A stretch of DNA of 64,000 bases from Ignavibacteria bacterium (lineage in GTDB: Bacteria; Bacteroidota; Ignavibacteria; Kapaibacteriales; UBA4661), in contig JACVZY010000018.1 of NCBI GenBank assembly GCA_014654705.1, positions 1 through 64,000 of the forward strand, in the 5' to 3' direction. Position numbers and translations under genes: made by a program. Shown here one piece after another: positions 1 through 2,015 of the stretch (positions are counted from its first letter, which is position 1; each line of letters starts with the position of its first letter). The notes under the pieces were generated by a model. The model did not search any database, was not told the origin of the DNA, and worked only from the letters and a program-made list of their open reading frames with translations.

Positions 1-528
1 TTGCTGCGGTGGCGGAGGCAAGTTGGTCAACTTCATCTTGTTGATTGCCGGTCCTCGGCTCACGCCCGACGTATTGACCACAAGAAACAACGAATATCCG
101 CTAAAAAGGAACGTCAGCAGGAATAATGCGCCAAGAAAACCACGCCTCGTAGCAATGGGAATAGTGCGCTTCAGTTCCGAAGTGCGAATAAGCGGCTTAG
201 AGACTTGCTTTGGAAGCAAACCTTCAGATACAGTACGCGACGCAGCAGCACGAGGGACTACTTCTTGTCGTTTCTGAAGTGCCGCCTCAAGGACACCAAG
301 CTGCCTACTATAAAATTCCTCACTTGCCTGAAGCATAGTGCTGGGCTTCGTGATAAAACGGCGTAAATCCTGAAGTGCAATGAGGTCGTCCAACGCAGAT
401 GGGAAGCGGCGCAGAAGTCCGTCCAGTTCACGACGCTCTGATTCTGTAACATCATCGTACAGGATGCTAATCATCAAGTGTTCGAGACGCTCACGGTCTC
501 CGTCGGGTGGAATGGCATCAATTTTCAT
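1..528 (-). CDS. Anti-sigma factor-like membrane protein with TonB-like C-terminal part (partial)
   Basis: The reading frame is open from an ATG at 528 to the window edge, so the C-terminus is missing; 176 residues are visible. The first ~60 residues hold an acidic segment (YDDVTESERRELDGLLRRFP) shaped like the N-terminal domain of anti-sigma factors, without the Cys/His of zinc-binding members. A basic stretch and one membrane helix follow (about residues 138-156), then a proline-rich start of a periplasmic region (LTNLPPPPQQ). The basic-helix-PPPP part closely resembles that of the TonB protein encoded at 1162-1923. The start overlaps the sigma-factor stop as ATGA, so translation is probably coupled. 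I infer a membrane anti-sigma factor whose outer part is TonB-derived. The sigma-binding role comes from position and domain shape only. Confidence 0.7.
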   Translation of the reverse strand, partial: MKIDAIPPDGDRERLEHLMISILYDDVTESERRELDGLLRRFPSALDDLIALQDLRRFITKPSTMLQASEEFYSRQLGVLEAALQKRQEVVPRAAASRTVSEGLLPKQVSKPLIRTSELKRTIPIATRRGFLGALFLLTFLFSGYSLFLVVNTSGVSRGPAINKMKLTNLPPPPQQ

Positions 529-1154
529 GGATTCTGTGCTCCTTCGTGGACATTTTTAAGGAGAATTTGGAGTTTTTTCATCGCCCTGAAATGGAGGGTT
601 TTCACCGTACCATCCGTTACGCCAAGCGCGGCAGCAATTTCTTTGAACGGCATATCTTGGAAGTGCCTTGCCCGAAAGACCGTTTGCTCCGCAAGCGTAA
701 GCGACTGAATAGCCCGCTCTATCTGCATTTGTAGTTCGTCTGCTTCAGCGAGTGTCATAGGATTGGCTTCGGGAGCGTGGTCTATGAGCACGTGAGTGTG
801 CTCAAATTCTTCGGTGAGACTTTCTTGGACAAGTTCACGCTGTGTGCGCTCTGATGCTGACTTTCGCATATCCAACCACGTGCGAAGCGCGACCGTCCTC
901 ACCCACGCACCAAATGAGGCATCCCAATGCTCGGATTCGCCTCGGAAGGAACAGATATTGAACACAAGTTTGAGCCAGATTTCCTGCGAAAGGTCTTCCG
1001 CCGACGCATTACCGCTAAGGCGGGCAGCGGCGGCGAACACAATGCGCTTGCACGCTGCATAGAGCGGGCGAAACGCATCATTCTCACCGCCAACGCAGTA
1101 GCGGCGCAGAAGTTCAGGGATATTTTTTTCTTCGTGATTCATTGCCACAGCCAT
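525..1154 (-). CDS. ECF-type RNA polymerase sigma factor
   Basis: This 209-residue protein has the two conserved parts of ECF sigma factors. Region 2, which melts the -10 element and binds core polymerase, lies around residues 27-100 (AEDLSQEIWLKLVFNI, then a tryptophan/arginine-rich helix). Region 4, which reads the -35 element, lies around 140-200 with the helix-turn-helix PFKEIAAALGVTDGTVKTLH. Region 3 is absent, as usual for the class. The ATG at 1154 sits 7 bases after the TonB stop codon, and the gene ends in a 4-base overlap with the anti-sigma-like gene. A TonB-sigma-anti-sigma order points to a cell-surface or envelope signalling unit. The target promoters cannot be read from the window. 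Confidence 0.93.
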   Translation of the reverse strand: MAVAMNHEEKNIPELLRRYCVGGENDAFRPLYAACKRIVFAAAARLSGNASAEDLSQEIWLKLVFNICSFRGESEHWDASFGAWVRTVALRTWLDMRKSASERTQRELVQESLTEEFEHTHVLIDHAPEANPMTLAEADELQMQIERAIQSLTLAEQTVFRARHFQDMPFKEIAAALGVTDGTVKTLHFRAMKKLQILLKNVHEGAQNP

Positions 1155-1161
1155 TCTTCAG

Positions 1162-1923
1162 TTATCGTAAACGGAAAACAATAGGAATACTTACCCAACA
1201 TTCAACAGGTCTGTTATTCTGAATAGCAGGCGTGAAGACAGAACCCATCACAGCTTTGGCAGCAGACTCATTCAGCAATTCCGAATCGCTTTGCCAGATG
1301 ATGTATTTCTTCGGAACACCAGTTTTAGCGATAAGCACACGAATACTGACTCTCCCTTCAATGCCGGCTCGTTTGGCAGTCTCAGGATAGACCACTTTTT
1401 TTTGCAAATCTTTAATATCAACGTATGGTTCCTTTTCTACCGGATAAAACTCGCGCGGATCCGGCTCTTCTTCCTCTCGGACTTCCACGGTAATATCGCT
1501 CACAAGCGCTGGAAAACCGTCATCAAGACCATTACCGCCATTCAGTTTTGCATGGAAGATTTCATCCACGTTTGCAAAGTCAGGTAGGTCTGCCAAAGCT
1601 TCATCTGGCACCGGAATCGGCGTTCCGGCACGGGCGAGAGGAGCATTCGGAAGCGCGGGTGGCGGTGGCTGGACAACTTCAGTGACAGGTGGTGGTGGCA
1701 GGGTCATTATCTTCGTGCTATTGATAACGGGGGCAGAGTGTAGCGACAAGTGATTTGCCAGCGCAAAAACGCTATACCCAACAAAAAACAGCACCAGAAG
1801 CGACATGGAACCCCAAAAGCCCCGTATGGTCGAAGTACGAATGTACGATTGGAGTTCCACAGCGCCATAGCGATTTGGCGTCATTGTCTGATTATTCAGA
1901 CGGGAAGGAATGTGCATCGTCAT
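1162..1923 (-). CDS. Energy transducer TonB family protein
   Basis: TonB proteins couple the inner-membrane proton gradient to outer-membrane receptors. This one has a basic cytoplasmic start, a single membrane helix (about residues 37-57), proline-rich stretches (LPPPPVTEVVQPPPPALP), an acidic linker with EVREEEEPDP, and a C-terminal TonB_C domain (VVYPETAKRAGIEGRVSIRV to the end). I chose the ATG at 1923 because GGAGG lies 5 bases upstream; an in-frame GTG at 1935 would overlap that ribosome-binding site. It is the first gene of the sigma/anti-sigma operon, and its helix region resembles the anti-sigma-like protein, suggesting duplication. No exbB or exbD is visible nearby. Confidence 0.9.
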   Translation of the reverse strand: MTMHIPSRLNNQTMTPNRYGAVELQSYIRTSTIRGFWGSMSLLVLFFVGYSVFALANHLSLHSAPVINSTKIMTLPPPPVTEVVQPPPPALPNAPLARAGTPIPVPDEALADLPDFANVDEIFHAKLNGGNGLDDGFPALVSDITVEVREEEEPDPREFYPVEKEPYVDIKDLQKKVVYPETAKRAGIEGRVSIRVLIAKTGVPKKYIIWQSDSELLNESAAKAVMGSVFTPAIQNNRPVECWVSIPIVFRLR

Positions 1924-2015
1924 GGTAGCCTCCACAAAAGCAGTAAGAAATATGGGCGAAGTAGCCCTTTCCTACCATGACGACGTTTTTTTGAGAAAGG
2001 TTGACAAGCCACAAT

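Follow-up and report, generated by a model that had tools for sequence, protein, structure and literature searches.

Can an ECF anti-sigma factor have a TonB as its outer part, and what would such a protein sense? The question is raised by an operon at the very start of a contig from an Ignavibacteria bacterium (genome G000), whose third and last gene had been taken in the initial annotation for an anti-sigma/TonB chimera with its C-terminal end off the DNA. The window referred to below is the whole stretch of 64,000 nucleotides that was analysed. The missing gene end is the end of the contig, since base 1 of the window is also base 1 of contig C18 (82,966 bp).

Results

Operon layout and promoter

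The features of the operon, in the order in which it is read, are:

1979..2006, minus strand: ECF-type promoter TGTCAACC-N16-CGTC of the tonB-sigma-fusion operon (exact pattern match, G000 contig C18)
1162..1923, minus strand: tonB, gene 1 of the operon (Pfam TonB_C, E 6.6e-19)
525..1154, minus strand: ECF sigma factor gene (Pfam Sigma70_r2, E 3.3e-8; Sigma70_r4_2, E 5.8e-15)
525..528, minus strand: ATGA common to the sigma stop and the fusion start (sequence, ORFs)
1..528 (528 to <1), minus strand: anti-sigma/TonB fusion gene, open at the contig end (ORF, full-length relatives)
265..528, minus strand: anti-sigma-like domain, residues 1-88 (profile match to relatives; fold of the G007 relative)
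22..177, minus strand: TonB-type juxtamembrane segment and membrane helix, residues 118-169 (identity to TonBs, BLASTP)
1..55, minus strand: 55 bases shared exactly with the start of contig C95 (helix region of an ExbBD-linked TonB, at its end, LPPPPQQ)

Both the order TonB, ECF sigma factor, third gene and the ATGA overlap, which had been read by eye, were confirmed, the former by ORFs and Pfam matches on the minus strand and the latter at 525-528. The tonB reading frame opens at 1935 and ends at 1162, its ATG at 1923 being preceded by GGAGG, and the sigma protein also matches the NCBIfam model sigma70-ECF (E 4.7e-27). The third gene is present with 176 of about 346-370 codons and is cut at LPPPPQQ; the truncated protein gave no significant Pfam match. 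Its similarity to the adjacent TonB in the helix and LPPPP region, likewise noticed by eye, was upheld in a BLASTP alignment of the juxtamembrane-helix-LPPPP stretch (25/57 identities, E 6e-14, in a single comparison).

The motif TTGTCAACC-N16/17-CGTC lies upstream of tonB in 5/5 genomes with the tonB-sigma-fusion operon (G000, G002, G004, G007 and G009). Matches to TGTCAACC-N15-18-CGTC numbered 24 in 10 genomes versus 16 for the reversed control, a modest excess, and five of the 24 precede tonB-sigma-fusion operons while six precede another ECF sigma gene. We infer that the tonB-sigma-fusion operon may be autoregulated, through a motif common to other ECF sigma genes by which the regulons are not separable. 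The matches before the other ECF sigma gene have the form TGTCAACC-N16-CGTC in six genomes (G000:C81:89095-89122, L204, L210, L212, L213, L215), and the same TGTCAACC motif was seen by eye before DUF1573-like genes (L217, L218, L220).

Full-length relatives and distribution

The fusion is present in seven of the 10 family genomes searched, the truncated window copy in G000 being counted, and was not found in the other three (G001, in about 570 contigs; G003; and G008, which is 70% complete). Full-length proteins have 348 residues in G002 and G004, 362 in G007, 346 in G009 and 370 in G005 and G006. The fused outer domain, predicted beyond the edge of the window, was borne out in these relatives: no full-length gene without TonB_C was encountered, and Pfam TonB_C was above cut-off in 6/6 (E 5e-17 to 3e-19). 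The domain order in the relatives is a class I anti-sigma-like N-terminus, a TonB-type membrane helix, a proline-rich linker, with LPPPP visible in the fusion alignment, and TonB_C. No FecR domain was found in six fusions by Pfam (E <= 1 for four, E <= 0.1 for two).

All seven fusions are directly behind an ECF sigma gene, with a spacing of -4 to +8 nt. A tonB gene is upstream of the sigma gene in five of the seven loci, the order tonB-sigma-fusion occurring in G002, G004, G007 and G009 in addition to G000. In G006 a TonB_C gene is behind the fusion, and in G005 one is before the sigma gene. Matches spanning the anti-sigma part and the helix were confined to the host family among 123 order genomes and a 395-genome phylum sample, as judged by a profile of those two parts (E <= 1e-5 in the phylum sample) which more divergent fusions would escape.

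The anti-sigma-like N-terminal domain

No anti-sigma match to Pfam or NCBIfam above cut-off was obtained in the window copy or the full-length relatives, the best sub-threshold matches being RskA_N (E 0.014) and PRK13920 (E 0.0011), both in G009. The fold was modelled with AlphaFold2 on the G007 protein (9 alignment rows; mean pLDDT 61.9 and pTM 0.28, low mainly owing to the linker). The model has helices at 7-21, 27-39 and 41-58, mostly with pLDDT 84-88, and a separate helix of lower pLDDT at 70-97, beyond which the chain continues as a long membrane helix and, past a disordered linker, ends in a TonB_C fold. Among solved folds the N-terminus was closest to RsiW (Z 6.6, rmsd 8.3 over 70), MucA (Z 6.5, rmsd 2.7 over 54) and RslA (Z 6.4, rmsd 2.9 over 54), ahead of UPF0291 (Z 4.7) and RskA (Z 4.6); the anti-sigma Z values of 6.4-6.6 are modest for helices. 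Foldseek alone gave no significant match for the G007 N-terminus (RsiW, E 1.4). A class I anti-sigma domain is described as a three-helix bundle flexibly linked to a helix 4, with helix 1 contacting sigma region 4 and helix 4 contacting region 2 (PMC7406223), and in the AlphaFold2 model the fusion N-terminus has this bundle of helices 1-3 plus helix 4. A co-fold of the sigma factor and the anti-sigma part reached pTM 0.41.

A profile of the N-terminal domain identified 14 unfused proteins, 10 from order genomes and four from the phylum sample, of which 12 are directly behind an ECF sigma gene (L037, L146-L148, L161-L164, L227-L230). A sigma gene is absent from the stretch around each of the other two, L149 and L150. 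One unfused protein, L230, has a Pfam zf-HC2 finger typical of anti-sigma factors (E 5.2e-9) and matches the domain of the G009 fusion with 15/40 identities (E 1e-6, single comparison), by which the fusion N-terminus would be linked transitively in sequence to a zf-HC2 protein; L147 matched an NCBIfam anti-sigma model with E 2.1e-5, far below cut-off. We regard it as probable that the product of the third gene is an ECF anti-sigma factor of the inner membrane, whose sensor would be a whole TonB.

The anti-sigma-like genes without a sigma gene nearby are located at L149:2422-3534 (G005) and L150:2149-3123 (G006), the former followed by a TonB-dependent receptor gene as read by eye. A PDB sequence search with the N-terminal profile returned two prefoldin entries at E about 0.02, which were judged to be chance.

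The TonB half and its nearest relative

The window helix segment is identical in 30/52 positions to the ExbBD-linked TonB on contig C95 of the same genome and in 20/50 to the neighbouring TonB. Over all seven genomes, the 52-residue segment shares 48-73% of its residues with the genome's own ExbBD-linked TonB; identity to the neighbouring TonB is 32-54% in six genomes, where for G006 the TonB gene behind the fusion was used. The ExbBD-linked TonB is the closer one in 5/6 genomes with both, G009 being tied (28/52 each). The initial annotation stands as regards the architecture, on the grounds of full-length relatives, folds, synteny and selection, but the adjacent TonB, to which it had compared the second half, is less likely to be the nearest kin of the fused half in five genomes.

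The last 156 residues share 91-97% identity with the genome's own ExbBD-linked TonB in 6/6 (DNA only 76-82%), the truncated window fusion and C95 TonB being left aside. In G005, G006 and G009 this exceeds the likeness to fusions at other loci (82-90%). Four of six neighbouring TonBs entered this comparison, because those of G002 and G004 lacked the motif at which the sequences were cut. In G009 the C-terminal DNA is closer to the neighbouring TonB (84.5% versus 77.7% for the ExbBD-linked one) and the protein to the ExbBD-linked TonB (95.5% versus 92.3%). For the G007 C-terminus, the first 14 fold matches listed are all to TonB or FusB domains of solved structure (Z 8.7-11.9), and in the model the fusion folds as TonB_C at its C-terminus, which is the end of the protein. 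In the close pairs G002-G004 and G005-G006, dN/dS is about 0.06 for TonB_C versus about 0.3 for the anti-sigma part. Given this identity and strong purifying selection, the outer part has been kept as a TonB, and by its sequence the TonB half is a complete TonB, its own helix included. Recent gene conversion is unlikely to be the sole cause of the likeness in the six complete genomes, given synonymous sites at or near saturation (fusion versus ExbBD-linked TonB: dS 1.2-2.8 in three genomes and not computable in three; dN 0.035-0.053).

The window genome itself adds a particular observation, in that contigs C18 and C95 are identical in their first 55 bases and in 61/128 positions thereafter, where C95 opens within an ExbB-ExbD-ExbD-TonB operon, inside its TonB gene. 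Such exact overlaps are typical at the contig starts of k-mer assemblers, and both TonB-type genes therefore probably enter one collapsed repeat, a copy of which was not found when the G000 assembly was searched with a TonB C-terminal query. Indirectly, this points to a window gene that would continue like the ExbBD-linked TonB, and in this genome the 55 identical bases do suggest recent exchange. In G001, the ExbBD-linked TonB is cut at the end of C370 and C259 starts with a TonB_C fragment (L140, L139), which is a possible second instance of a collapsed TonB repeat.

Fused and unfused states at one locus

A gene for a VWA-domain protein, read by eye, is upstream of the sigma gene in six genomes, and the VWA proteins are 68-91% identical to that of G006. 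At this locus the sigma gene is accompanied by the fusion in G005 and G006, whereas its companion in G000, G001, G002 and G007 is an anti-sigma factor that is unfused and has a different membrane helix; in G005 a small TonB_C gene lies between the VWA gene and the sigma gene. Fused and unfused rows interleave in the sigma tree, where the fewest changes are two, which also fits one gain plus one loss. Constraining all fused rows to one group was rejected, though weakly, when the long row G021a was included (AU p 0.039), and was not rejected in its absence (p 0.515). Repeated fusion of this first scaffold is accordingly suggested by synteny and TonB_C similarity, not by the tree. A locus with and without TonB_C in sister genomes is a natural before-and-after comparison.

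A second sigma-linked scaffold

Behind another ECF sigma gene, 7/10 family genomes encode a protein of 551-684 aa. Its N-terminal part is short, TonB_C lies in mid-protein ahead of a tail, and in 6/7 a membrane helix is predicted:

C71:267300-269303 (L138:1798-3852): second scaffold, G000 copy; relatives in L132-L137

The tail of the G000 copy matches a T9SS sorting domain, and the others align to it. Eight loci with the same tail, out of at least 11 such matches outside TonB_C proteins, were examined; among these order matches listed, none has TonB_C and 8/8 have an ECF sigma gene upstream, with one gene between in L196. On gene context this second scaffold is a putative anti-sigma factor. 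As it carries TonB_C too, TonB_C has therefore joined two unrelated sigma-linked scaffolds. In G000, the region C31:29719 to 32259 (L128, L044) encodes a further TonB_C protein, with 352 aa and a long cytoplasmic N-terminus, whose gene adjoins an opposite-strand gene with a Plug-domain match.

Receptors and classical signalling parts

In classical cell-surface signalling, the STN domain of a receptor acts together with FecR (PMC9249621). Plug matches number 56 in G000. The search for STN domains was negative in all 10 family genomes and positive in 4/14 control genomes. FecR-domain proteins occur in 9/10 family genomes, and the classical parts are therefore not wholly absent.

Discussion

The fusion can be set against four known systems. 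With FecA-FecR-FecI it shares the tie between TonB-dependent transport and an ECF sigma factor via a membrane anti-sigma protein; there, however, the STN domain of the receptor touches FecR (PMC9249621), whereas the fusion has no FecR domain and the family no detected STN. With class I (ASDI) anti-sigma factors it shares a three-helix bundle and fourth helix, one membrane helix and a sigma-coupled gene, but its outer part is a TonB, a word absent from the main text of PMC7406223. As in the TonB transducers of ExbB-ExbD, a membrane helix and a proline-rich linker are found, together with a TonB_C 91-97% identical to that of ExbBD-linked TonB; the difference is an added cytoplasmic anti-sigma-like domain of roughly 100 residues and the position behind a sigma gene. 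Dma proteins join an anti-sigma domain, a helix and a tether to a beta-barrel (PMC13088901); the N-terminal anti-sigma domain, membrane helix and long disordered tether towards the outer membrane are alike, but Dma ends in its own barrel, whereas the fusion ends in TonB_C and would dock on other barrels. Among the open-access entries listed in literature searches, no title or start of an abstract names an anti-sigma/TonB_C fusion, with most subscription papers lying outside. From its sequence the fusion appears to be a hitherto undescribed variant among membrane-bound ECF anti-sigma factors, detected in one family only, and such proteins may already be in databases as "TonB family protein".

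We consider it probable that the fusion holds the sigma factor and that its working TonB arm senses TonB-dependent transport, where binding, energisation and signal are inferred from the sequences and the model. The cytoplasmic domain would bind and silence the adjacent sigma factor, the helix would be able to sit in the ExbB-ExbD complex, the proline-rich arm would span the periplasm and TonB_C would dock on loaded outer-membrane receptors at their TonB box. Either this docking or a pull exerted by ExbBD would alter or destabilise the anti-sigma part, perhaps via cleavage, and set the sigma factor free. The freed sigma factor would transcribe its own operon, giving more TonB and more of the fused brake, a loop that would match TonB supply to transport demand. 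The fusion would take over the roles of FecR and of the STN domain carried by receptors, its TonB arm reading receptor engagement with or without ExbBD energy.

A stricter form of this reading, which we put forward tentatively, is a force- or energy-read anti-sigma factor: a TonB with a sigma factor on its cytoplasmic end, in which ExbBD-driven engagement of a loaded receptor would directly release the sigma factor. A single protein would then replace the STN-FecR relay, with TonB_C placed on two unrelated sigma-linked scaffolds within one bacterial family.

In known TonBs the helix segment is the part that meets ExbBD, and this bears on an alternative that we regard as unlikely, namely a passive occupancy sensor. 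Here TonB_C would bind exposed TonB boxes or compete with TonB, and its bound state would set sigma release independently of ExbBD or the proton-motive force. The conservation of TonB_C would be equally expected, and cooperation of the fusion with ExbBD is a prediction from similarity. However, the helix segment is TonB-like as well, at 48-73% identity to ExbBD-linked TonB in 7/7 genomes, whereas a different helix is found in the family's unfused anti-sigma factors.

Somewhat more doubtful still is that the protein is mainly a further TonB, whose anti-sigma-like part keeps the sigma factor at the membrane until it is released by protein turnover or an unrelated envelope stress. The stronger constraint on TonB_C than on the anti-sigma part would agree with this, as would the tonB gene in the same operon in 5/7 cases; but other TonB_C proteins are already encoded in the genome, sigma genes are also followed by the unfused form of this anti-sigma scaffold, and TonB_C has been taken up by the second sigma-linked scaffold too. 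A join created in assembly, or a resemblance due to chance, was rejected as very improbable once full-length relatives were found, for although the window gene stops at a contig edge within a repeat, the whole fusion is present in six relatives from separate assemblies, and the domain-helix join of the window copy falls outside the common 55 bases.

An anti-sigma factor with a transport-sensing TonB arm, the reading preferred here, would matter for how transporters are heard. The STN-FecR relay is the best described route by which a transporter reports its loading to the cytoplasm, and in a family with no detected STN and with anti-sigma factors carrying TonB, a shorter signalling route is on offer. 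It raises the question whether the TonB motor passes a signal inwards besides energy outwards. In this uncultured Kapabacteria lineage, gene control may be coupled directly to nutrient uptake at the cell surface.
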